In this document: piece after piece, positions 6,283-37,515 of the stretch
Layout of the letters: every line of letters begins with the position of its first letter
How positions within the stretch are numbered: position 1 is the first letter of the stretch
Source of the DNA: Bacteroidia bacterium
Lineage (GTDB): Bacteria > Bacteroidota > Bacteroidia > J057 > JAIXKT01
DNA: 38,197 nt
Reading direction: 5' to 3'
Assembly (NCBI GenBank): GCA_026932145.1
Contig: JAIXKT010000066.1
Span: 21,230-59,426, forward strand
Made by a program: the position numbers and the translations under genes
The notes under the pieces: model-generated
The model's database searches: none
What the model saw: the letters and a program-made list of their open reading frames with translations, nothing else
Told to the model about the DNA's origin: nothing

Positions 6283-6591
6283 TGTAAAGTAATCAATAGC
6301 GTCCTAAACATTTTGAGAAAAAGAGGAGGCAAATTAAGTAATTCTAATTATCTAAGAGGTTACACAACAAAACTTCCCCTCTCTTATGGCAAGAGCGCGT
6401 TGCATAACCTCTAAATTTTAAAAAAGCCCAAATTTTCTCCCGTTCAAAATAAATTTTGATTTTTTGGGGAGTTTATGGGGAGTTTTTTTACATTTTACGT
6501 CTTTTTTTGTGGGTGTGGGGTTTCATTTTTTATGTTTTTGCCCCTTTTTCGCCTCATTTTTACCAATTGGGCGTATTTTGGGCCTACAGGC

Positions 6592-7701
6592 TTAAAATAG
6601 CTGCATTTGAGGTGGTGCCGTTTTTGGTGTTAACATATTGTTTACTAATAGCTTAGGTAACCTATACAGGTTGTATGCAATTGCTTCCAGGGCGTGCTGG
6701 GCGTGGGTTTTGGCGATGCCCACATAGCGGGCGGTGCCGCCGCCGAACCAGCTTTTGGTGCCGGCAAAGGTGCGCTCTATTTTGTAGCGGTGTTTGCCGC
6801 AGAGTTGGTTGAATTTGAGTTGTAATTTTGTTAAGGGTTTGTTTTTCACTGCTTTATAACACACTCTATCTTTAAGTCCCTTCGCTTTGAGGTAGGTGGT
6901 ATGGGCTTTGGATTTGTAGGCTTTGTCGGCATAGATGGCGACTTTTGGGGGAACTTGTGCCTTGGTTATCAATGTGTTAAAGTGGTTATGGTCATGGACG
7001 TTGGCGGGTGTGGTCTCCAGGGCAAGGACCAATCCGTTGCCGTCGGTAATAACGTGTTTTTTGTAGCCAAAGCGGGTTTCTTTGCCTTTTTTGAGCCAGC
7101 GGGCTTCGTCGTCCACGCCAGGTTGATTTACTTTAACAAGCTTTAATTCAGCCGTTTGTGTTTGTATAGCTTCTTCCGTTTGTTCGTTTTCTTTTCTGTC
7201 TTCGGCAATTTCGTAGGTGGGTTTTCCGGTGGGTTTGCGGGGGCTGTCGGTAATGGAGGCATCTATTATGCAGCCGGATTTTACCGTAATAGCATGTTTA
7301 TCAAGCTGTTGGTTAAGTTCTTGCAACAGCAAGTCGTAGGCATTGCTTCCTGCCAGTTCGTTGCGGAAGCGGCACAGGGTGCTGTGGTCGGGTACTTCGT
7401 CTTCAAGACTCAGCCCAACGAAGGTCATCCAGCTTAAATCGGTGTTGGTCCTGTCTTCTATGTCTCTGTCGCTCAGGCTTTTATACCAAACGCCGAGCAG
7501 TAGCATTTTGAAAAGAATAATGGGGTTGTAGGCGGGTCTGCCGTCCGGTCTAAGCCCTTTTGGGTAGTGTTTTTGAAGTATTTTTACGATTGATTCCCAA
7601 TCAATTACCTCATTTATTTGCTTTAGAAACGCGTTTTTAGAACTGCGTTTAGAAACGTAGGGCTGGCTAAAACTCATCTGTATTTGGGCGTGCTTTATCA
7701 C
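6592..7701 (-). CDS. IS5-family transposase, copy A
   Basis: This 369-residue DDE transposase belongs to the IS5 family (N-terminal DUF772-like part, then an IS4-type catalytic domain). Candidate catalytic residues are Asp147 (CIIDASITDS), Asp259 (IYADKAY) and Glu309 (YKIERTF...K, the family's Y-R-E-K type signature). The N-terminal region carries the typical LRPDGRPAYNP and PDHSTLCRFR wording. The long frame starts with GTG at 7701. A TATTTTTG element at 7713-7706 would place transcription start close to that codon, so ATG at 7677 (protein starting MSFSQPYV) is the likelier start. The frame is intact and should be functional. Confidence 0.9.
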   Translation of the reverse strand: MIKHAQIQMSFSQPYVSKRSSKNAFLKQINEVIDWESIVKILQKHYPKGLRPDGRPAYNPIILFKMLLLGVWYKSLSDRDIEDRTNTDLSWMTFVGLSLEDEVPDHSTLCRFRNELAGSNAYDLLLQELNQQLDKHAITVKSGCIIDASITDSPRKPTGKPTYEIAEDRKENEQTEEAIQTQTAELKLVKVNQPGVDDEARWLKKGKETRFGYKKHVITDGNGLVLALETTPANVHDHNHFNTLITKAQVPPKVAIYADKAYKSKAHTTYLKAKGLKDRVCYKAVKNKPLTKLQLKFNQLCGKHRYKIERTFAGTKSWFGGGTARYVGIAKTHAQHALEAIAYNLYRLPKLLVNNMLTPKTAPPQMQLF

Positions 7702-7705
7702 ACCA

Positions 7706-7713
7706 CAAAAATA
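7706..7713 (-). promoter_or_regulatory. Transposase -7 promoter element, copy A
   Basis: Read on the minus strand this is TATTTTTG, a full match to the Bacteroidota TAnnTTTG -7 element, inside the IS and just upstream of the transposase. It favours the ATG at 7677 as start. Copy B carries the same element at 9118-9125. Confidence 0.4.
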
Positions 7714-7782
7714 ATAAATTAGTTAATTAATTCAAAATCAAATAGTTAAATATTTTTATTCTTTTTGTCGTGCAACAGGCTC

Positions 7783-7814
7783 AATTCTATAGTTAATTAA
7801 CTGGAAGATTAATT
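7783..7814 (+). repeat. 32-bp direct repeat, first copy (between the two IS copies)
   Basis: These 32 bases, beginning AATTCTATAGTTAATTAACT, recur exactly at 9195-9226 after copy B. They lie outside the terminal inverted repeats as I define them, so the duplicated unit is IS plus 32 bp. Confidence 0.85.
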
Positions 7815-9194
7815 GAGTGCGTTGCATAACCTCTGAATTTTTAAAAAAGCCTAAATTTTCTCCCGTTCAAAATAAATTTTGATTTTTTGGGGAGTTTTTT
7901 TACATTTTACGTCTTTTTTTGTGGGTGTGGGGTTTCATTTTTTATGTTTTTGCCCCTTTTTCGCCTCATTTTTACCAATTGGGCGTATTTTGGGCCTACA
8001 GGCTTAAAATAGCTGCATTTGAGGTGGTGCCGTTTTTGGTGTTAACATATTGTTTACTAATAGCTTAGGTAACCTATACAGGTTGTATGCAATTGCTTCC
8101 AGGGCGTGCTGGGCGTGGGTTTTGGCGATGCCCACATAGCGGGCGGTGCCGCCGCCGAACCAGCTTTTGGTGCCGGCAAAGGTGCGCTCTATTTTGTAGC
8201 GGTGTTTGCCGCAGAGTTGGTTGAATTTGAGTTGTAATTTTGTTAAGGGTTTGTTTTTCACTGCTTTATAACACACTCTATCTTTAAGTCCCTTCGCTTT
8301 GAGGTAGGTGGTATGGGCTTTGGATTTGTAGGCTTTGTCGGCATAGATGGCGACTTTTGGGGGAACTTGTGCCTTGGTTATCAATGTGTTAAAGTGGTTA
8401 TGGTCATGGACGTTGGCGGGTGTGGTCTCCAGGGCAAGGACCAATCCGTTGCCGTCGGTAATAACGTGTTTTTTGTAGCCAAAGCGGGTTTCTTTGCCTT
8501 TTTTGAGCCAGCGGGCTTCGTCGTCCACGCCAGGTTGATTTACTTTAACAAGCTTTAATTCAGCCGTTTGTGTTTGTATAGCTTCTTCCGTTTGTTCGTT
8601 TTCTTTTCTGTCTTCGGCAATTTCGTAGGTGGGTTTTCCGGTGGGTTTGCGGGGGCTGTCGGTAATGGAGGCATCTATTATGCAGCCGGATTTTACCGTA
8701 ATAGCATGTTTATCAAGCTGTTGGTTAAGTTCTTGCAACAGCAAGTCGTAGGCATTGCTTCCTGCCAGTTCGTTGCGGAAGCGGCACAGGGTGCTGTGGT
8801 CGGGTACTTCGTCTTCAAGACTCAGCCCAACGAAGGTCATCCAGCTTAAATCGGTGTTGGTCCTGTCTTCTATGTCTCTGTCGCTCAGGCTTTTATACCA
8901 AACGCCGAGCAGTAGCATTTTGAAAAGAATAATGGGGTTGTAGGCGGGTCTGCCGTCCGGTCTAAGCCCTTTTGGGTAGTGTTTTTGAAGTATTTTTACG
9001 ATTGATTCCCAATCAATTACCTCATTTATTTGCTTTAGAAACGCGTTTTTAGAACTGCGTTTAGAAACGTAGGGCTGGCTAAAACTCATCTGTATTTGGG
9101 CGTGCTTTATCACACCACAAAAATAATAAATTATTTAATTAATTCAAAATCAAATAGTTAAATATTTTTATTCTTTTTGTCGTGCAACAGGCTC
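7815..9194 (-). mobile_element. IS5-family insertion sequence, copy B
   Basis: This 1380-bp element is in the same orientation as copy A and encodes an identical transposase. Differences are confined to the non-coding ends: the left end reads GAGTGCG instead of GAGCGCG, one 11-bp unit of a GGGGAGTTTAT tandem is lost, one T is added in the A/T tract, and one G-to-T change lies near the right end. Its left boundary directly follows the 32-bp repeat, and its right boundary is followed by the same 32 bp. Confidence 0.8.
8004..9113 (-). CDS. IS5-family transposase, copy B
   Basis: The product is identical over all 369 residues to the copy A transposase, with the same DDE residues (Asp147, Asp259, Glu309). 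The frame begins with GTG at 9113; ATG at 9089 is the likelier start, for the same promoter-position reason as in copy A. Identity of the coding DNA, against small changes in the ends, points to recent duplication or gene conversion. It ends the IS block that sits directly upstream of the ATP synthase operon, in the opposite direction. Confidence 0.9.
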   Translation of the reverse strand: MIKHAQIQMSFSQPYVSKRSSKNAFLKQINEVIDWESIVKILQKHYPKGLRPDGRPAYNPIILFKMLLLGVWYKSLSDRDIEDRTNTDLSWMTFVGLSLEDEVPDHSTLCRFRNELAGSNAYDLLLQELNQQLDKHAITVKSGCIIDASITDSPRKPTGKPTYEIAEDRKENEQTEEAIQTQTAELKLVKVNQPGVDDEARWLKKGKETRFGYKKHVITDGNGLVLALETTPANVHDHNHFNTLITKAQVPPKVAIYADKAYKSKAHTTYLKAKGLKDRVCYKAVKNKPLTKLQLKFNQLCGKHRYKIERTFAGTKSWFGGGTARYVGIAKTHAQHALEAIAYNLYRLPKLLVNNMLTPKTAPPQMQLF

Positions 9195-18510: not shown

Positions 18511-21500
18511 ATGAATACTTGTTTTGGAATTTCCAGATTTGTATGGATTTTTTGCTGTATTGGGTTGATTTTTTCAGGGCTGAAAGCCCATGATTTACGA
18601 TTTACTCCCAATGGCGGGCAATGGCATCAGAGAGTTTTGTATCGGGCAGATATGCCTCAAGGCAGAGTTTTTTTAGAGCAAAATAAATTTACTTATGTTG
18701 TTTATAAGCCTACCTTAAACCATACCCAAACCAACAGCTTAATTTTTCCGGAAAACCAAAGCCCTTTTCAGATTCATGTATTTAATTTAGAGTGGCTTGG
18801 CGGAAATCCTTCCCCTAAAACGATTTCAGAAAAAGTATTACCTGAAACTGAAAACTTTTTTATCGGGAATGACCAGAGTAAGTGGGTAAGCGGGCTGCAT
18901 CCAGCACAATCTGTTTTATATTCAGAAGTTTATAACGGTATTTCGTTACGCGCTACTTCCCATGACAAATCCTTTAAATATGAGTTTATTGTTCAACCCG
19001 GAGCAGACCCCAACCAAATTCGATTACGTTATAATGGACTGAACAACATTAGCATTCAAAACAACCAACTTGTTTTGGAAACAGCTATTGGAAAATTTTA
19101 TGAGCAAGAACCCATTGTTTGGCAGGTCGTTAAGGGAGAAAAAAAATATTTACGTTGTAAATACCGGCTACAAGATGGAAATATCACTTTTTCTATTGAT
19201 AAGCACAACCCCAAATTACCATTGATTATAGATCCGGTTTTAGTCTTTGCAACTTTTACGGGTTCTTATGCTGATAACTGGGGTTTTACGGCAACTTATG
19301 ACAATTTGGGAAATCTATATTCCGGCGGCTTGGTACGCGGAGTCGGGTTTCCGGTTGATGTCCTCGGCCCCTATTCTATCCAGCCAAACTATGCAGGAGG
19401 AACTTGGATTTCCTTTAACTACAGCCTTTTCTATGAAAGTGATATAGCTATAATCAAATATAACAGCAATGGTCAGCAACGAGTTTATTCAACCTATCTC
19501 GGTGGAAGTTTTAATGAACAGCCACACAGCATTATCGTTAATGACAGAAATGAACTCTATATCCTTGGCACAACCCGTTCCAATAACTTTCCGGTATTCT
19601 TTAACTCGTATGATAATAGCTTTAACGGCCAAATAGATATTATTGTGGCAAAATTTGATAGTCTTGGAGAAAATCTTTTGGGGAGCACTTATCTGGGAGG
19701 AAGCCAAGAGGACGGTATAAATAGAAAAGATATAACCGGCTCAACAAATCCTAATCCGTTACACCGTTTTTATGCTGATGATGCCAGAGGTGAGATTATC
19801 GTAGATAATCTGGGTTATTGCTATGTGGTAACCAGTAGTTCTTCGCCGGATTTCCCAACTACGGCAGGTGCTTTTCAGTCAAATCACATTGAAGACCAAG
19901 ACGGAGTTGTGTTTAAATTAGACCCACTTATGCGCCAGTTAGTTTGGAGTTCGTTTTTAGGGGGCACCGGCATAGACGCAGGTTATTCACTTACTTTTGA
20001 CCAAGGAAATACCTTAACTGTTGTGGGAGGCACTACCAGCCAAGACTTTCCCATCACAGCAAATGCTTATAGCGACAGCTATAATGGCGGCTCAGCAGAC
20101 GGCTTCATCACCCGAATACGTAATGACGGCTCTCTAATCGAATACTCAACTTATATCGGCACTTCAAGCTATGACCAAATTTACTTCGTTAAAACAGACA
20201 TAGACAACAATATTTACGTAACCGGCCAAACGGAGGGCATGAGCTATCCCATAACCACCGGAGTTTATTTTAACCCCAATTCTACCCAATTTGTTACTAA
20301 ACTTAATCCTACGCTTAGCAACATCATTTATTCCACACGATTTGGCTCCGGGCGTGGTACGCCGGATATTACGATGTCTGCATTTTTGGTAGATAAATGT
20401 GAAAATATTTATATCTCCGGCTGGGGTGGCTTAGAGGTAAATGGTGTTCGGAATGGAAATACCACCGGTTTACCCGTTACGCCAAATGCTATGAAATCTG
20501 CTACGGACGGTTCCGACTTTTATCTGATTGTATTTCGAAAAAATGCCCAAACTTTATACTACGCAACCTTTTTTGGTGGCTATCAAAGTGCTGCGCAATA
20601 TAGCGAAGGAGAGCACGTGGACGGCGGAACCAGCCGGTTCGATAGAAAAGGAATTGTTTATCAATCTGTATGTGGTGGTTGCGGCGGGCAGTTTGCTGCC
20701 CCCGGCGGAAGTAACCCGGCAACCAGCGGCTCATACTCACCTGTCAATAACTCCTACAACTGTAATAACCTCGTCTTCAAAATAGAATTTGAACTCTACT
20801 TAGAATCTGTGCTATCTGAATTTACCCAAAATAAATTTACCGGCTGTTCACCCCTTGATATTCAGTTTACTAACCTAAGCGAACGTTACCGGTCTGTTCT
20901 TTGGGATTTCGGTAATGGAGATACAACCTCGGTTCTAAATCCTGCCCGAACTTTTACGCAACCCGGAATCCATACAATAAAACTATATGCCATTGATTCT
21001 CTGAGTTGTAATATTTCAGATACCATTACCAAAACCATAGAGGTTTTTGCGAAACCTCATGCGGACTTTACCACCACTGCCTTTGCCTGTACTACGGTAG
21101 TTCAGTTTACAAACTCGTCTTCCATAGATGCTACTGATTTTTTATGGAATTTTGGGGATGGGAATACCAGCATCCAGCGAGACCCCATACATACCTTTGC
21201 AGCTAATGGCCGCTATAATATTCAGCTAATTGCCAGTAATACCAATGGCTGCCGAGATACAATCAATCGAAGTTTAGATGTATATTCTTATCCGGTTCCG
21301 GCTTTCAATTTAGCAAGTTCTCCTTGCCGGCTAAACGCCCAATTTGGAAATCAAACTGTTGGGGGAAATGAGTTTTTTTGGGATTTTGGGAACGGACAAA
21401 CGAGTACCGATTCTTTACCCAGTACAATCTATTCTGCTCCCGGCAGCTATATTGTAAGCCTTCGGGTAAATGGCTCTACCTGCCCGGTAACCATTCAAGA

Positions 21501-23661
21501 TACCATTAAAATACAGCCCGCTTCTGTAGCAAATTTTACCTATTCACAAATTCCTTGTTCTTATACCATTAACTTTACCAATCAGACTCAAAATGCAACA
21601 ACTTACCTCTGGAATTTTGGAGATGGAACACAGGATAGTGTTCTAAGCCCAACTCACACTTTTCCCGGAGGGGGTACTTATGCCGTTCAACTGATTTCCG
21701 AAAAAGATATTTACTGCGCAGATACTTTTTCGCTAAGCATCACTTTACCGGAAATCCCGCAAGCAAGGTTTAGACCTGTTGCACAAAAATGCGACTTAAA
21801 TGTTTACTTTGACAATACAAGTTCTGCAGCCAACCAATTTTTATGGGATTTTGGGGATGGAACAACGAGTAATTTATCGGCTGTATTTCACCAATACAGT
21901 TCATCGGGAATTTATACAGTTCAGCTAATTGCTTCACAAAGTAATGCTTGCCCAGACACAACGACTCTTGCTGTTGAAATCTCACCTCATTCTAATGCTC
22001 AATTTATAGCTCCCGATTCAACCTGCAATTCTCAGGTAACTTTTCAGAATAATAGCATTAACTACTTTTCTCAGCAGTGGGATTTTGGAGATGGTAATAC
22101 GGATACGTTACGCAATCCGGTACACACGTACACAAGTCCCGGTGTCTATCAAGTGCAGTTAATCACAGACGCGGGAACTTTGTGTGCAGATACAGCATTT
22201 CAAACGGTTGTGGTAAGATTACCCGGCACAGCACGCTATGGTATTAGTACCGAAAAATGCAATACAAAAGTCTTATTTTCAGATAGTTCTATAAATCATT
22301 TATCATCTTTTTGGCTTTTTGATGATGCAACTACCGATACAGCGTTAAATCCGGTACATATTTTTCCAGGCCCCGGAAGATATGATGTACGGCTGATTGT
22401 GAATAGATACAGTCCTTGCCCAGATACAATGTTTCAAACAGTGGTGATTGATACTCCGGCAACGGCTCATTTTTTTGTGCCGCCGATTGTCTGTGATACA
22501 TTTGTTACGTTTTTTAACACAACCACACATGGCCGAACTTTTTTATGGGATTTTGGGGACGGAAATACCGATACAGTTTTTGCCCCTGTTCATCTATATT
22601 CGGGGTCGGGTACTTATAGAGTTCGATTGTGGGTTAATCAAGGAGAGTATTGTGCTGATTCGCAGGAGGTTACATTTAGAATCCCGAATCTTTCTGAGGC
22701 AAAATTCAGCTATCATGCGGAGCCGTGCGATAGAAAGGTAACTTTTGAAAATTTGAGCCGCTTAGCTGGAAGCTATCGTTGGGAATTTGGAGACGGCACG
22801 TTTTCCAATACTGCCGCTCCTGTACACACTTTTTCGGAAGCCGGAAGCTATACCGTTCAGTTAATCACCAATCCGGATTCTGCCTGTTCTGATACTACCA
22901 AGCAAGTCATCGTCATTTGGCCAGCATCCCAAGCGGATTTTCGCCAACTAACAACCGAATGTGATTCGGTTTCTATTTTTCAAGCAAGTTATCCGGTTCA
23001 TTTTTCCAGAAGTTGGCATTTGTCTAATGGTCAATCTTTTACAGATTCAACTGTCTTTGTTGCACTTTCTCCGGGATTTTATACCATAACACTCTTAACA
23101 GATTCTGGAACAGCCTGCGCAGATACTTTCCAAAAAGACTTTCAAATTCTGCCAAGACCGCAAGCCAAGTTTGACATAAAGCAAGAGACTTGTAAACAGA
23201 TAATTACACTTCAAAATACTTCAATAGGTTCTCAACTGCATTATTTCTGGAACTTTGGGGACGGAAGCACGAGTACCGAACAAAACCCAATTCACCATTA
23301 CAACCAAGAACGTACTTATGAAATCTCCTTAACGGCCATAGATGCTAATGGCTGCTCTGATACTACCTCATTTCTGTTAGAATACGACTTAGATGGTTTG
23401 AAAAATCTTTTTATTCCCAATGTGTTTACGCCTAACGGAGACGGCAGAAATGATAAATTTGAAATCTTTGCGGAATCCGCACCTTGTGTAGAATCAGTGA
23501 TGATATTTGACCGCTGGGGAATCTTGATTTTTGAAACCAATTTTTATGGAAACTATTGGGACGGAACAGTAAATGGAAAAGATGCCCAAGAAGGAGCTTA
23601 TGTTTATGTAATCAAAGGCCGAAATGGAAAACGGGCAGGAACAGTTACGTTAATTCGATGA
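18511..23661 (+). CDS. Giant secreted SBBP/PKD-repeat protein with T9SS type B sorting tail
   Basis: The 1716-residue protein has a signal peptide (ending near residue 26, GLKAHD). A DUF7948-like region follows (about 30-245, FTPNGGQWHQRVLYRAD, then YNGISLRATSHDKSFKYEF). Next are SBBP-type beta-propeller repeats (about 250-760, motifs such as YSTYLGG and YVTGQT). About eleven PKD domains fill roughly 770-1623 (WDFGDGNT-type loops; two, near 1265 and 1505, lack the canonical GDG). Each PKD unit has one Cys near its start and one before a C-(A/P/S)-DT motif near its end, suggesting a disulfide per domain. The last 86 residues (NVFTPNGDGRNDKF, FDRWG, WDG) are the CHU_C/gliding-motility-type tail that directs T9SS export and surface attachment. 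Likely a rod-like adhesin or surface-layer component. The S9 peptidase gene overlaps its stop. Confidence 0.92.
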   Translation: MNTCFGISRFVWIFCCIGLIFSGLKAHDLRFTPNGGQWHQRVLYRADMPQGRVFLEQNKFTYVVYKPTLNHTQTNSLIFPENQSPFQIHVFNLEWLGGNPSPKTISEKVLPETENFFIGNDQSKWVSGLHPAQSVLYSEVYNGISLRATSHDKSFKYEFIVQPGADPNQIRLRYNGLNNISIQNNQLVLETAIGKFYEQEPIVWQVVKGEKKYLRCKYRLQDGNITFSIDKHNPKLPLIIDPVLVFATFTGSYADNWGFTATYDNLGNLYSGGLVRGVGFPVDVLGPYSIQPNYAGGTWISFNYSLFYESDIAIIKYNSNGQQRVYSTYLGGSFNEQPHSIIVNDRNELYILGTTRSNNFPVFFNSYDNSFNGQIDIIVAKFDSLGENLLGSTYLGGSQEDGINRKDITGSTNPNPLHRFYADDARGEIIVDNLGYCYVVTSSSSPDFPTTAGAFQSNHIEDQDGVVFKLDPLMRQLVWSSFLGGTGIDAGYSLTFDQGNTLTVVGGTTSQDFPITANAYSDSYNGGSADGFITRIRNDGSLIEYSTYIGTSSYDQIYFVKTDIDNNIYVTGQTEGMSYPITTGVYFNPNSTQFVTKLNPTLSNIIYSTRFGSGRGTPDITMSAFLVDKCENIYISGWGGLEVNGVRNGNTTGLPVTPNAMKSATDGSDFYLIVFRKNAQTLYYATFFGGYQSAAQYSEGEHVDGGTSRFDRKGIVYQSVCGGCGGQFAAPGGSNPATSGSYSPVNNSYNCNNLVFKIEFELYLESVLSEFTQNKFTGCSPLDIQFTNLSERYRSVLWDFGNGDTTSVLNPARTFTQPGIHTIKLYAIDSLSCNISDTITKTIEVFAKPHADFTTTAFACTTVVQFTNSSSIDATDFLWNFGDGNTSIQRDPIHTFAANGRYNIQLIASNTNGCRDTINRSLDVYSYPVPAFNLASSPCRLNAQFGNQTVGGNEFFWDFGNGQTSTDSLPSTIYSAPGSYIVSLRVNGSTCPVTIQDTIKIQPASVANFTYSQIPCSYTINFTNQTQNATTYLWNFGDGTQDSVLSPTHTFPGGGTYAVQLISEKDIYCADTFSLSITLPEIPQARFRPVAQKCDLNVYFDNTSSAANQFLWDFGDGTTSNLSAVFHQYSSSGIYTVQLIASQSNACPDTTTLAVEISPHSNAQFIAPDSTCNSQVTFQNNSINYFSQQWDFGDGNTDTLRNPVHTYTSPGVYQVQLITDAGTLCADTAFQTVVVRLPGTARYGISTEKCNTKVLFSDSSINHLSSFWLFDDATTDTALNPVHIFPGPGRYDVRLIVNRYSPCPDTMFQTVVIDTPATAHFFVPPIVCDTFVTFFNTTTHGRTFLWDFGDGNTDTVFAPVHLYSGSGTYRVRLWVNQGEYCADSQEVTFRIPNLSEAKFSYHAEPCDRKVTFENLSRLAGSYRWEFGDGTFSNTAAPVHTFSEAGSYTVQLITNPDSACSDTTKQVIVIWPASQADFRQLTTECDSVSIFQASYPVHFSRSWHLSNGQSFTDSTVFVALSPGFYTITLLTDSGTACADTFQKDFQILPRPQAKFDIKQETCKQIITLQNTSIGSQLHYFWNFGDGSTSTEQNPIHHYNQERTYEISLTAIDANGCSDTTSFLLEYDLDGLKNLFIPNVFTPNGDGRNDKFEIFAESAPCVESVMIFDRWGILIFETNFYGNYWDGTVNGKDAQEGAYVYVIKGRNGKRAGTVTLIR

Positions 23662-31114: not shown

Positions 31115-32566
31115 ATGATAACTTTACCCGATCTTCGGTATTCTATTTACTTTTTAATAGTTGTATTTTTTCCAAACTATATTTTTGGTCAAGTTGTATG
31201 GAAGGCTCATTTTGGGACTTTATACACACAATCCTCTCCAAGATGTATAGATCTGACCCAAGATGGAGTTTTAGATGTTGTCATTGGTTTAAGCGAAGGC
31301 AATAATGTAGGTGGCAGAGTTCAGGCTTATGAAGGTAAAACCGGCTCTTTAATTTGGGATTGTAATTTAGATGCAAGTATTTTTGGGTCTGCTGTTTTTT
31401 GGGATATTACGGGAGACGGTATTCCAGATGTTTTTATAGGCGGGCGCAGCACAACTTTTGCCGCTATTAACGGCAAAACCGGAGAAGTAATCTGGAAGTT
31501 CGATGTAAAAGCAAAACCCAAAAAACGTAAGTTTTCAACCAACTGGAAAATGTTTTACAATGCTCAATTAGTGCCAGACCAAAACAATGACTTAGTGCCT
31601 GATTTGTTGGTTACTAACGGCGGGCAGGAAGATTCCGCTGCGTTTAGCAAGAGCCGCCCTACGGGTTATATCATGATACTAAGCGGCAAAACAGGCCAAA
31701 TTTTGGGATACCACCCTAATCCTGACTTTGCAGAAACCTATTGCTCACCGGTTTATGCCTATAATAATGGCGAACATGAAGTTTACTGGGGAACCGGCGG
31801 CGAAACCCACCCGGGAGCACTTTGGCGCACAACCTTGAAAAATATATTAGAAGGAAAACCCGAAAATGCCCAAAGAATTATCAATCACGCCCGAAAAGGC
31901 TTCGTTTCCCCGCCCGTATTCGTTGACCTAAATAAAGACAATGTACTCGACATCGTAGCTACCGCCTTAGGCGGCGTTTGCTATGCCATTGACGGAAAAA
32001 CACAAAAAGAACTCTGGTCAAAAGACTTTGGCAAGGTAGAAACATATTCCATCCCCGCACCCGGCCTCTATTTTGATTCTACCCGCACAGACCTCTTCTT
32101 TAACTACGGAAGAGGCTCTTTTGTGGAAGGATTTCAACACCATATACAAACTGTTTTGAATGGAACTACCGGCGAAATATTATTTCAAGATTCCATTGAC
32201 GCAGTGATTATATCTTCCCCCGTTACAGCTAATATTTTTCAGCATCCGTTCCATACCGTCTTTTTGAAATATAACTTACGCGACACAGACGTACCGGCTA
32301 ATCACGGAATAAAAATGTATTGTTTTAACGGAAAAAACCCTTATTCAGAAGTTCTTGATTTACCCACAGGTGGAGCCGGACACTTTTCTACACTCTGGGT
32401 GGGAGATTTAGACGGAGATAAAAATTTAGACATCCTCTCTGCAATGCGGCTTGATAGCTGGTATTTAATACGTCTGGAAGTTGCCTATAAATTAAAAAAT
32501 CCTCCCACTTGGGGAGCTTACCATGGTTCACTATATGATGGCGTTTATCGTGAAAAAATACGTTAA
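31115..32566 (+). CDS. Secreted FG-GAP/PQQ-like beta-propeller protein
   Basis: The 483-residue protein has a signal peptide (IYFLIVVFFPNYIFGQ, cleavage near 26). Six or seven propeller blades follow. Calcium-loop-like repeats are plain: DLTQDGVLDVVIGL, DITGDGIPDVFIGG, DQNNDLVPDLLVT, DLNKDNVLDIVAT and DLDGDKNLDILSA. They alternate with PQQ-like blade words (YEGKTGSLIWDC, INGKTGEVIWKF, IDGKTQKELWSK). The mixture is usual for BamB-like/FG-GAP exported proteins of the phylum. There is no T9SS tail and no lipobox, so it is probably periplasmic. The next gene starts 44 nt before its stop, so the two are co-translated. Confidence 0.87.
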   Translation: MITLPDLRYSIYFLIVVFFPNYIFGQVVWKAHFGTLYTQSSPRCIDLTQDGVLDVVIGLSEGNNVGGRVQAYEGKTGSLIWDCNLDASIFGSAVFWDITGDGIPDVFIGGRSTTFAAINGKTGEVIWKFDVKAKPKKRKFSTNWKMFYNAQLVPDQNNDLVPDLLVTNGGQEDSAAFSKSRPTGYIMILSGKTGQILGYHPNPDFAETYCSPVYAYNNGEHEVYWGTGGETHPGALWRTTLKNILEGKPENAQRIINHARKGFVSPPVFVDLNKDNVLDIVATALGGVCYAIDGKTQKELWSKDFGKVETYSIPAPGLYFDSTRTDLFFNYGRGSFVEGFQHHIQTVLNGTTGEILFQDSIDAVIISSPVTANIFQHPFHTVFLKYNLRDTDVPANHGIKMYCFNGKNPYSEVLDLPTGGAGHFSTLWVGDLDGDKNLDILSAMRLDSWYLIRLEVAYKLKNPPTWGAYHGSLYDGVYREKIR

Positions 32567-34049
32567 AATAATAGTTTCCTGCATTGTATTAATCTGTTGC
32601 GGGAATATTTCTCTTGCAAAAGAACTGCTTTTTTATGCAGATATTGCACGCTTTCAAAGCCCCGAAGGAAAAACCTATCTGGAGGTTCATCTATCAATTG
32701 GAGGCTCTACGGTCTATTATAATCCGCTGGCAAATGGAAAGTTTAAAACTTCGGTAGAAGTTATCTATCTGATTTCCCAACAAGGTGAAACCCAGAATAT
32801 TGTATGGGGAGATAAATTTTTATTAACAAACGAAAACATTATAGACACAACAACTTCGGTTGAATCTCGCTTTTTTATGGATACCCGTCGGGTAAAATTA
32901 GCTCCCGGAAATTATCAACTGACTATAGAACTTACAGATAACTTTGCCCCCGGCAAACGGGACTATAAAGCCACCCGAAATTTCTCTATTGCACAAGATA
33001 CTATTTCCCAACCCGTTTTTAGCGACTTATTGTGGGTAAACTCTTTCTTCCCAACCGGAAGTAAATCAACTCAATATACACGCGGAAATATTGACATCCT
33101 ACCCTTTGTAACTAACGGAGCTTTCTTGGATATGGATTCACTGAAGTTTTATATTGAACTATATACCAAAGATATTGAAGAGCCTTATTATTATGCTATT
33201 TCCATTTTACAGGCTGCTAACTCTGCCCGCATAGAAAATTTTACCCGAAAAACACGCCCACAAAAACCCCAAAAAGTAAATCAATTAATCCAAGCATTTA
33301 ACATCAAAGAACTACCCTCACAATATTATATCCTTGAAGTAGAAGCTGTTACTAATGATGGAAGGACTTTGGCGACCAAACGAACCCGTTTTTATGTATA
33401 TCGTAGTGCAGATAATCAGACTTTACCGGATTTTTCTCAAAAATATGACCAGCTTTATGCACATCCGGAAGAATCTCTCAATGTTTACTTACAAGCATTA
33501 CGTTTTATATCAACTCCCACAGAAATTAATTTCGTGAATTCCCTTCAAACATTTAGCCAGAAAAAAAATTACTTTGTTCATTTTTGGCAAAAAAGACATC
33601 AGGCTAATACACCCGAAGGTTATGAATGGAAAGATTATTTAGCCAAAATTAAATATGCAAATGAGCATTTTAAATCTGCCCTAAGGCCCGGCTACCAGAC
33701 AGATAGAGGTAGAGTATTGCTTACCTATGGAGCACCAAATGACATTCAATCTTTTCCCAGCCAAACAGATAAATATCCGTACCAAATCTGGTCATATAAT
33801 AAACTGGGCGTTCAAAGTAATGTAATCTTTGTTTTTTATGACCGCGACTTAACCACCAACGAATATGTACAACTACATTCTACCAAATTCGGGGAATTTA
33901 CCAACCCCAATTGGCGAAGCCAGTTATTATTCCAAACCAATGGTTCAATGGGAGGGTATGATATGGAAAACTATAACAACAACCCTAACCTAAAAGACCA
34001 CTTTAACGACGACCAAATCTTCATCAATAACCGAGATAACCCCCGTTAG
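32523..34049 (+). CDS. GWxTD-family secreted protein
   Basis: The 508-residue protein has a signal peptide (IIVSCIVLICCGNISLAK); translation could also begin at ATG 32535 or 32538. The conserved C-terminal block at about 340-470 matches the GWxTD domain found in Bacteroidota and Acidobacteria: YFVHFWQKR, KIKYANEHF, then GYQTDRGRVLLTYGAPNDI and YPYQIWSYNKLG. The name-giving motif reads GYQTD, Tyr replacing Trp. The N-terminal ~300 residues look like beta-sandwich domains (VYYNPLANGKF, then APGNYQLTIELTD). The molecular role of the family is not established. It overlaps the propeller gene by 44 nt and precedes the WD40/pseudo-caspase gene. Confidence 0.88.
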   Translation: MVHYMMAFIVKKYVKIIVSCIVLICCGNISLAKELLFYADIARFQSPEGKTYLEVHLSIGGSTVYYNPLANGKFKTSVEVIYLISQQGETQNIVWGDKFLLTNENIIDTTTSVESRFFMDTRRVKLAPGNYQLTIELTDNFAPGKRDYKATRNFSIAQDTISQPVFSDLLWVNSFFPTGSKSTQYTRGNIDILPFVTNGAFLDMDSLKFYIELYTKDIEEPYYYAISILQAANSARIENFTRKTRPQKPQKVNQLIQAFNIKELPSQYYILEVEAVTNDGRTLATKRTRFYVYRSADNQTLPDFSQKYDQLYAHPEESLNVYLQALRFISTPTEINFVNSLQTFSQKKNYFVHFWQKRHQANTPEGYEWKDYLAKIKYANEHFKSALRPGYQTDRGRVLLTYGAPNDIQSFPSQTDKYPYQIWSYNKLGVQSNVIFVFYDRDLTTNEYVQLHSTKFGEFTNPNWRSQLLFQTNGSMGGYDMENYNNNPNLKDHFNDDQIFINNRDNPR

Positions 34050-34164
34050 CAGCGTACAGAAGTTTGGGGTATAGCAGCTACAACTACTTTAAAGTTCGGC
34101 AACTTTTACTACGGCAGCCAACTTGTATAAAAGAATTGTAACTTGCTCTAAAATTTGTTTGCGT

Positions 34165-37020
34165 ATGCTCAAGAGAGTACTTTGGCTGTTGGTCTTTTTG
34201 GTATGCCGCAAGGTCTTTGCCCAAAATTTACCTATTTATACCAAACATCAAGATAGCATTACCCATATTTCAGGGGAAGGAAATTATTGGGTTACGGCAG
34301 ATGCCAATAACCGGCTTATCTTATGGGACTTAGCTAAAAATCAATCTGTTGTAGATTGGTTTATGCCGGAAATTCGCCAAGTAGAATTTAGCCCATTCAG
34401 AAAAAAATGTGCTATTCTTACGCCTAAAAACTTATGTATTATTGACTTTCAGAAAAATACAGCCCAAAAAATATTACTGAATAATTTACCTATTGAAAAA
34501 ATTACTTGGGCGCAATCCGGTGATTCATTGGTTACTTTGCTGGGGCAGGAAGTAGTAACCCTTGCCTTAGATTCTGCCCTTACACGATCCAAAACCAACA
34601 TCCAGTTCCTAAATAGAATCACGAATTATCAATTATCGGATACTTTCATTTCTATGACCACCGTTAATTGGGACGAAGAGGAACTGATTCAGCTATATTC
34701 AATTCACCAAGATGAACCTATTTTTGAGAAAAAACTATCCGAACAAAAGTATTCCTTTTGGTTTCAAAAAGGCTCTAAATTACATCTAATCATTGCGAAA
34801 TCAGACAACTCAATACAAATAACTGATATTCAATCTAATAAAGAGTATCTACCGTTTACCTATCATTTAAAACCAGTAAAATCTGTTTCAATAGTTGGGG
34901 ACACCGTGATTAGCTCAGATATTTCCGGAATGGTAGCTTTTTGGAATTTACAAACCGGCAGGCTAATCGCAAAACTACAATTACCAGCCGAAGAGTCCCC
35001 ATTTTTAGCTGGTATTCCCAATAGGCACACTGTATTACTCCAACAAGGTGCTGTTTTGAATGAATATTCCTTGCAAGGTGAGCTATTACAATCTTTCGGG
35101 AAAAATACCTGCTCAAAAAACGTAGCTGCTTGGTTATCAGATTCTACCATAATTATTGGAACGGATACATTGCTAAGTTCTTTCTCCCTAAACACGTTAC
35201 GAACAACTTACTTAGAAACAAAAATTCCAGCACAATTAGATTATTTAGTTTACAACCCGGTAAAGCAGCAGATAGCCTTTTCGGCAACAGAAGGAACTAA
35301 AACTACTTTACGGGTATTAGCCTACCCTGGATTAAATACCTTGTGGAGCTATCCATTGGAGAGTTCTGTCTGGGAACAGCTATATTTTTCCTTAGACGGA
35401 AACCGCCTTATCGGAAAAACTAAATTTATGCCCGGAAAAACAACCATCGCGATTGTCTGGGATTCCAATAATGGCACCGTTATCACCCAAACTCAAAGCC
35501 CGTCTTATGCCAAACAAGAAATGGCATATACTCGAAACAACCAAGAGTTATGGCAGGCTACCAACGCCCTCAAACCAGTATTATCCAAATTAAATTTTAC
35601 CGGAAACATAACTGATTCTATTACAGATTATTATCATGAAAGATTTTGGGTATCTGAAAATGGAAACTATATTTTGTACTCTACGAAACCCAATAACTGG
35701 GCTATCAGAGATATTGAATCAAAGATTGTGATAGATACAGTTAAACTTAGTGGAAAACTTACGGCAAGCAACATTTGGCAAGACAATTGGTGGAGTACCG
35801 AACTCTTAGATACCTTTCCGGCAATTACAAAAGTACGCTGCCGCAATATCAAGCAGCAACAATGGATTTGGGAAGAAATTATTACCGGAAAAATATCCAG
35901 TATATCACGCTCTCCCGAAGGAAATTGGATAACCTTGCTTACTCAAACCGGCCCCGTACACCTGCTAAATGCACATACCGGCATCCCTAAATTTGAACTG
36001 TTATTAACTCCACGCGGAAGTTTAGCAATAGCACAAGACAAAAACTACTATTGTTGGGGAACCCATCAGCCATTTATTCAAAATTTTACCCAAAATTTCT
36101 CCCCCAGTGAAATTATTAAAAATATAAAACCGGAATCAAATCCATTTTTTGTAAATTCCATTCACAAATTAGAGGAACAACGCAGCAATGCACCTCTTAC
36201 CCGAATAGATTCTTTGCCCAGAAATCAGCAGCAATCACTTTTTTTATTGGTTATTGCTCCCGAAAAAACGGCAGATACCAACCTAACCCGTTATTCCGGC
36301 GAAACAGACGCAGCCTTACTTGAAAAACATTTTAAACTCACAAAAGCCTTTGCTTCTGTAAATGTAACCATCTTAAAAGGAAAAAACGTTTCCCATAACG
36401 GACTGCTAAATACAGCTAATTGGCTGAGTAAAGCCAAAGAAACAGACTTAGTCTGGATTTATGTCATTGGAAATGGTGTAATTACCAATAATGGTGAACC
36501 GGGAATTGCGCTAAATACATTCAAAATTAATGAACCGGACAAACAAGATATTATCACAATTGAAATCTGGAAAGAGCTATTTAGCAAATGTTCGGCAAAA
36601 TTTCGTTGGATTATGGGAGACCTTTCGTTAAGTAGTATGCTCACTATGTCATTACAACCAAGTTTAAAGGTAGGTGCTTTTGCCGGCGGATACCTGAAAT
36701 ACCGAATTCGAAGCAATAAAACGACCGTTCAGCTTCCCTTAGCAGAAGCAACGCGCTTATTTGAGCTATACGGAGAAATTATCAATGTTCAAACACAGGC
36801 TTCTGTGCTCTGGTGGTTTAGCCCCGTAGAACTACTTTGGAATAAAGGCAGTGAAGTTTTTTCTCCCTTTACACGGTTCTTAACGCAGTATTTTACACCC
36901 GGCACTTGTAGAACTATTCAGTCTCAGGGACTTACACAAGTGAGAAACTCATTTAAACAAAGTTTCTCGCAGATTATCGCTGACCCGGAAATAATGATCC
37001 CGCTAATATTACCCCGTTGA
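34165..37020 (+). CDS. Secreted WD40-like propeller protein with C-terminal caspase-like domain lacking the catalytic dyad
   Basis: I start it at ATG 34165 (951 residues), which gives a clean signal peptide (MLKRVLWLLVFLVCRKVFAQ); the frame also opens with TTG at 34123. Residues ~25-640 show WD40/YVTN-like blades (YWVTADANNRLILWDL, VISSDISGMVAFWNL, SISRSPEGNWITLL, VHLLNAHTG), enough for one or two propellers. Residues ~690-900 follow a peptidase C14 (caspase-like) order: a LFLLVIAPEK strand, SGETDAALLEKHF helix, VTILKGKNVSHNGLLNTANWL, DLVWIYVIGNGV, FRWIMGDLSLSS. In active enzymes the last two read SGHG and DACHSG. Here the His position is Asn770 and the Cys position is Ser821, so it should be inactive. 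Last gene of the 31115-37020 group. Confidence 0.7.
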   Translation: MLKRVLWLLVFLVCRKVFAQNLPIYTKHQDSITHISGEGNYWVTADANNRLILWDLAKNQSVVDWFMPEIRQVEFSPFRKKCAILTPKNLCIIDFQKNTAQKILLNNLPIEKITWAQSGDSLVTLLGQEVVTLALDSALTRSKTNIQFLNRITNYQLSDTFISMTTVNWDEEELIQLYSIHQDEPIFEKKLSEQKYSFWFQKGSKLHLIIAKSDNSIQITDIQSNKEYLPFTYHLKPVKSVSIVGDTVISSDISGMVAFWNLQTGRLIAKLQLPAEESPFLAGIPNRHTVLLQQGAVLNEYSLQGELLQSFGKNTCSKNVAAWLSDSTIIIGTDTLLSSFSLNTLRTTYLETKIPAQLDYLVYNPVKQQIAFSATEGTKTTLRVLAYPGLNTLWSYPLESSVWEQLYFSLDGNRLIGKTKFMPGKTTIAIVWDSNNGTVITQTQSPSYAKQEMAYTRNNQELWQATNALKPVLSKLNFTGNITDSITDYYHERFWVSENGNYILYSTKPNNWAIRDIESKIVIDTVKLSGKLTASNIWQDNWWSTELLDTFPAITKVRCRNIKQQQWIWEEIITGKISSISRSPEGNWITLLTQTGPVHLLNAHTGIPKFELLLTPRGSLAIAQDKNYYCWGTHQPFIQNFTQNFSPSEIIKNIKPESNPFFVNSIHKLEEQRSNAPLTRIDSLPRNQQQSLFLLVIAPEKTADTNLTRYSGETDAALLEKHFKLTKAFASVNVTILKGKNVSHNGLLNTANWLSKAKETDLVWIYVIGNGVITNNGEPGIALNTFKINEPDKQDIITIEIWKELFSKCSAKFRWIMGDLSLSSMLTMSLQPSLKVGAFAGGYLKYRIRSNKTTVQLPLAEATRLFELYGEIINVQTQASVLWWFSPVELLWNKGSEVFSPFTRFLTQYFTPGTCRTIQSQGLTQVRNSFKQSFSQIIADPEIMIPLILPR

Positions 37021-37031
37021 GTACGTAAATT

Positions 37032-37056
37032 GCCATTACGGAACTACCGTAATGGC
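37032..37056. terminator. Convergent hairpin terminator overlapping the lipoprotein 3' end
   Basis: GCCATTACGG (37032-37041) and CCGTAATGGC (37047-37056) form a perfect 10-bp stem with a 5-nt loop, 12 bp after the stop at 37020. The minus-strand gene's last codons and its TAA (37036-37038) lie inside the hairpin. A T-rich stretch (ATAATAATTTTATT) follows on the plus strand. Confidence 0.7.
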
Positions 37057-37515
37057 CGGAATAATAATTTTATTGCTGGGATGCCCGGCTCTATCTAAAA
37101 GATAAACTGTATAGACAACCGTTTCTTGGTTTACACGGGGATTTTTACGCTCTATACCGTTGATATTCACCGTAATAACTCCCTGAATAGAGGGTTTTCT
37201 GGTTTCCGGTGTGAGGTAAGGCAAGTTATAGGAAATCACGCTGCTATCACGGCTATCAATCAAGAAGAAATTTGAATTTGAAGTAGTAGGCGTTTTGTTT
37301 CCTATATCACCGTCTCCGTCCTTATAGCGTATTTTCAGAACAAGCTCATCACCGGTTAAGCAGTTTGGCGGGTCAGCACATTCTCGGATTCGGGTAGGAG
37401 TTAGGCTTTCAAAGGCGATATCCGGCTCAATCGGAAAAACCGGTTCGCTGCCTCCACAGGAAACCGTTCCCAAACCCAAAATCAGCCACCAAACCCAGCC
37501 CAAATAACATTTCAT
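37036..37515 (-). CDS. Lipoprotein of unknown function
   Basis: The 159-residue protein has a lipoprotein signal (WWLILGLGTVSCGG, lipid on Cys near 20). The mature part is a single small beta-rich domain with a DGDGDIGN acidic loop (about 72-79) resembling a calcium-binding turn, and two Cys (CADPPNC, near 47 and 52) that may form a disulfide. Similar KYKDGDGDIG lipoproteins are common in Bacteroidota, with no known function. It is probably in the outer membrane. It converges on the pseudo-caspase gene and shares its terminator hairpin. Confidence 0.8.
   Translation of the reverse strand: MKCYLGWVWWLILGLGTVSCGGSEPVFPIEPDIAFESLTPTRIRECADPPNCLTGDELVLKIRYKDGDGDIGNKTPTTSNSNFFLIDSRDSSVISYNLPYLTPETRKPSIQGVITVNINGIERKNPRVNQETVVYTVYLLDRAGHPSNKIIIPAITVVP

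Follow-up and report, generated by a model that had tools for sequence, protein, structure and literature searches.

An exported WD40–caspase-like fusion protein of a Bacteroidia bacterium, a probable pseudo-orthocaspase with an N/S pair at the catalytic positions

Pseudo-orthocaspases, in which the catalytic residues of the p20 domain are replaced, account for 858 of 9,994 bacterial orthocaspases, and for 10 of 1078 in Bacteroidetes (Klemencic 2019, PMC6426788). The published members retain both aspartates of the S1 pocket (PMC6426788). The residue pairs listed for their dyad positions are Y-S, Y-N, Y-C, H-G, C-Y, Y-R, Y-G, Y-Y, Y-H, Y-Q, and H-P, and the N-S pair is absent from this list (PMC7889975). 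Among the partner domains of bacterial metacaspases, WD40 is the most frequent (PMC3501461). Deletion of the Synechocystis pseudo-orthocaspase (SyOC) leads to higher tolerance of oxidative stress (PMC7889975), and thus a phenotype is possible for proteins with a dead p20 domain. Research on pseudo-orthocaspases has been almost confined to cyanobacteria and alphaproteobacteria; the 951-aa protein described here adds a case from Bacteroidota. The p20 core fold is also common to the MALT1 paracaspase and metacaspases (PDB 4i1p, 4f6o, 4afv); however, these are active proteases with other flanking domains, and their sequence identity to the 951-aa protein is very low.

The analysed stretch of DNA (the window, 38,197 nucleotides) comes from a host genome of 3.48 Mb in 66 contigs. 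An open reading frame on its forward strand, from the ATG at 34165 to a stop codon ending at 37020, encodes 951 aa, arranged as a signal peptide followed by a pair of WD40-type propellers and, at the C-terminus, a p20 domain of the C14 (caspase/orthocaspase) type:

34165..37020, + strand, gene of the probable exported WD40–pseudo-orthocaspase, stop included (open reading frame; codon usage resembling that of neighbours)
34165..34221, + strand, signal peptide, residues 1-19, predicted cleavage between VFA and Q20 (sequence; invariant Q20; Q-rule)
34258..34980, + strand, first WD40-type beta-propeller, about residues 32-272 (Pfam propeller models; AlphaFold2 (AF2) strands at pLDDT of about 60-80; Foldseek)
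35002..36040, + strand, second propeller, about residues 280-625, boundaries uncertain (Pfam; AF2; Foldseek)
36040..36228, + strand, NYY-type junction to p20, 63 residues (compared with four relatives)
36229..37017, + strand, C14 p20-like domain, residues 689-951 (alignment, C14 profile, AF2, structure matches)
36307..36309, + strand, Asp715, retained S1-pocket acid at the position of Asp95 of T. brucei metacaspase 2 (invariant, 28-row alignment)
36472..36474, + strand, Asn770 in place of the catalytic His, IGNG instead of GHG (alignments)
36619..36621, + strand, Asp819, retained S1-pocket acid at the Asp211 position, the D of D-x-C (alignments)
36625..36627, + strand, Ser821 in place of the catalytic Cys, GDLSLSS instead of DACHSG (alignments)

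The frame is also open upstream, to an alternative TTG start at 34123, and the better signal peptide is the one read from the ATG at 34165 (MLKRVLWLLVFLVCRKVFA, cut before QN). Residue Q20 is invariant across 15 aligned fusions, and the site conforms to the Bacteroidetes Q-rule for signal peptidase I (PMC5837995), which supports the export claimed in the earlier note. Neither a T9SS C-terminal domain nor a clear lipobox was seen in the 951-aa protein, and the periplasm would therefore be the simplest location for it. Promoter-like sites near the gene do not exceed the chance level.

In the N-terminal two thirds of the protein, Pfam matches belong exclusively to WD40/propeller models; they are many, and all of them are below threshold. 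One, an EML-type propeller model, covers residues 556-641 in the second propeller, where the AF2 strands are of low confidence. The full-length AF2 model is likewise of low confidence (pLDDT 51), and its propellers match double WD40 structures in Foldseek (e.g., COPB2 or yeast beta'-COP). The many propeller models and these structural matches bear out the WD40 part of the fusion described previously. The order of signal peptide, propellers, and C-terminal p20 is that of exported Bacteroidota WD40-C14 fusions (encoded on contigs C7, C1, and, in a longer form, C46 of the host genome, or G015 C1120), and the NYY-type junction is common to most of them and the 951-aa protein. However, the stretch from this junction to p20 has 63 residues here, compared with 179-186 in four relatives, and the spacer module of approximately 115 residues between propeller and p20, a feature of the exported fusions, is missing.

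Pfam searches with the C-terminal 286 residues, up to an E-value of 10, gave no notable match and no C14 model, and a single-sequence PDB search with the p20 region was empty, so more sensitive tests of the caspase claim were needed. A profile was made from 27 Bacteroidota C14 domains, with the 951-aa protein left out. It scored this protein at 38.4 bits (E 8.9e-11) when searched against a set that also included 2000 shuffled versions of its sequence, whose top score was 6.1 bits. As judged by this profile, the similarity of the C-terminal domain to C14 is far beyond chance. Apart from the protein itself, a search of 395 genomes of the class with p20 as the query found C14 proteins exclusively; they are about 1000-1350 aa long, with identities of 18-26%. 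The AF2 model of residues 640-951, computed with 27 relatives, has a mean pLDDT of 75, a pTM of 0.78, and core blocks above 90. The 50 PDB matches listed for it are MALT1, caspase or metacaspase structures, all with a probability of 1.00. The AF2 models are of moderate (p20) and low (full length) confidence, and the alignments behind them included C14 domains with intact dyads; since the p20 model was thus informed by dyad-bearing relatives, the independent evidence comes from the profile test. In the latter half of p20 both alignment and model are poor; at the C-terminus there is no relevant Pfam match, and a p10-like tail is modelled at low confidence. The C-terminal domain is predicted to have the caspase p20 fold, and the model and its structure matches agree with the caspase-like order of strands noticed earlier. 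Default Pfam models miss divergent dead p20 domains such as this one, so that the number published for Bacteroidota may be an underestimate.

In active orthocaspases (peptidase C14B) the catalytic His lies within GHG and the catalytic Cys within D-x-C-x-S-G; in the 951-aa protein IGNG and GDLSLSS stand in place of these motifs. IGNG aligns with GHG and GDLSLSS with D-x-C-H-S-G, gap-free within each motif, which confirms the earlier placement of N770 and S821 on the catalytic His and Cys positions. The distance between them is indeed 51 residues; in relatives it is 50, the difference resulting from one residue inserted between the two motifs. From residue 689 to the end, His and Cys occur only as H722, H744, C809, and C915. 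None of these occupies a dyad position, and an alternative His/Cys dyad inside p20 is thereby ruled out. With the dyad replaced, cutting by the cysteine-protease mechanism would not be possible for this protein. The invariant columns of the 28-row alignment include both GxG glycines and the aspartates D715 and D819. In the alignment to metacaspases, these two aspartates match the T. brucei metacaspase 2 residues Asp95 and Asp211, which bind the basic residue at P1 (PMC6426788). The pocket was thus spared and the catalytic machinery lost.

The 951-aa protein shares with pseudo-orthocaspases (Klemencic 2019, PMC6426788; SyOC, PMC7889975) a p20 domain recognised by homology, the replacement of both catalytic residues, the S1 acids (a common feature, not a strictly defining one), Ser at the Cys position, which is common among them, and perhaps the orthocaspase-like lack of a recognised p10. 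The known members are mainly cyanobacterial and alphaproteobacterial; this one occurs in Bacteroidota and places p20 behind two WD40 propellers, and its N-S pair differs from those listed. The N/S pair and the missing spacer set it apart, and on sequence grounds it is best filed with the pseudo-orthocaspases, a kind already published, as a clear but isolated and divergent case.

Bacteroidota WD40-C14 fusions retain GHG and D-x-C, which the 951-aa protein does not. In the host genome, three proteins exceed the Peptidase_C14 cut-off, encoded on contigs C46 (1348 aa), C1 (600 aa), and C7 (1070 aa), and the 951-aa protein is undetected by this Pfam model. All three carry GHG, followed by DACHSG (C46), DACFAG (C1), or DSCHSG (C7), and by sequence the C1 and C7 proteins are WD40-C14 fusions. 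His and Cys are kept in 111 of 113 aligned C14 domains of the host genome and its relatives, the three paralogues included, in a sample gathered with C14 profiles and hence biased towards intact domains; the exceptions are the 951-aa protein and a distant G020 protein with R at the His position. Loss of the dyad is therefore not clade-wide, and the possibility that it extends throughout the clade is rejected, as the nearest relatives, among them the three paralogues, keep H and C. The presence of dyad-bearing paralogues in the same genome, together with the predicted export, would make live and dead forms comparable in one cell. A second p20 without the dyad was observed in the same order (L178; G020:C347:1700-2550, - strand), with LAGRGYY for GHG and LMADFFVDP for D-x-C; it lies in another part of the tree, and its sequence marks it as an independent case of a dead C14 domain.

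Taken as a whole, the 951-aa protein is quite probably a pseudo-orthocaspase that is exported and acts as a binder in the periplasm, having kept, as a WD40-C14 fusion, the caspase fold of p20 and its acidic S1 pocket but lost the dyad. The predicted fold, the replaced dyad, and the signal peptide all support the reading of the earlier note as an exported pseudo-protease, and the scaffold or sensor role suggested there would be a further step. The protein probably works by binding basic peptide motifs or partner proteins in the periplasm without catalysis. It is proposed that the propellers would recruit partner proteins, and that p20 either would hold a basic peptide segment that is not cut or might pair with, and tune, the dyad-keeping C14 paralogues encoded on contigs C46, C7, and C1. 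Inactive caspase homologues elsewhere regulate active caspases. By analogy, the dead, spacer-less WD40-C14 protein might serve as a periplasmic decoy or adaptor that regulates its exported dyad-keeping WD40-C14 paralogues; we regard this as rather unlikely. If true, it would be a bacterial extracytoplasmic analogue of the control of active caspases by inactive homologues.

The alternative that survives best, although we think it improbable, is relaxed constraint, i.e., an ex-protease that is being lost and whose p20 has no present function. It would account for the end branch of the 951-aa protein in the tree (6.65, compared with a median of 0.38) and for the second half of p20, which aligns and models poorly. 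Measured by path, its closest neighbours in the tree are WD40-C14 proteins, those of C7 and C46 among them, with its exact placement unsure. In line with this alternative, no orthologue was found among 60 relatives, 22 genomes of the order, 395 of the class, and 395 of the phylum (overlapping samples), and a GTDB pattern scan, which reaches close kin only, found none either. However, a long neutral history is expected to leave stops or frameshifts, whereas here the 951-codon frame has stayed open despite many substitutions, which makes an unconstrained frame unlikely, and codon usage matches the neighbouring genes in that frame only. The open frame and the codon usage argue against a pseudogene, and the core strands, D715, D819, the GxG glycines, and an intact signal peptide survive. 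Constraint may nevertheless be relaxed in p20 alone. It is very unlikely that the protein is still an enzyme, with Ser821 as the nucleophile of a re-invented active site: Ser lies exactly on the nucleophile position, but the base position has no His and none is near it in the alignment (only H722 and H744), and we know of no C14 member working with an N/S pair. That the domain is unrelated to caspases and its strand order an accidental likeness, as the silence of Pfam and of the PDB sequence search and the mere 13-22% identity of p20 to relatives might suggest, is hardly credible in view of the independent profile match, which no shuffle approached, the exclusively caspase-fold structures among the matches listed, and the architecture shared with the paralogues.

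Two genes precede the pseudo-orthocaspase gene:

31115-32566, + strand, FG-GAP protein gene
32523-34049, + strand, GWxTD protein gene

The GWxTD gene was found in 51 of the 60 relatives, mostly in single copy, and is nearly universal in the class. In 20 relatives checked, no p20 protein like the 951-aa one lies behind it; a conserved operon with the GWxTD gene was therefore rejected, there is no synteny argument, and the neighbourhood points to no function. By eye, the places downstream of GWxTD are taken by a papain-like protease (L086), an FG-GAP-like protein with a Por-type tail (L085), or a TPR-CHAT-like protein of the caspase clan (L102), where here the pseudo-caspase is found. Convergent with the WD40-C14 gene, at 37036-37515 (- strand), lies a gene for a 159-aa putative lipoprotein with no Pfam match. 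Elsewhere in the window, two nearly identical insertion sequence copies, 1412 bases apart, occupy 6469-9113 in tandem; each encodes a DDE transposase of 369 aa with identical Pfam scores, and they are flanked by an ABC/C39 peptidase exporter region and ATP synthase genes. The gene at 18511-23661 encodes a secreted protein of 1716 aa, which contains DUF7948 and ten PKD_4 stretches and carries a type IX secretion signal of the CHU_C kind.
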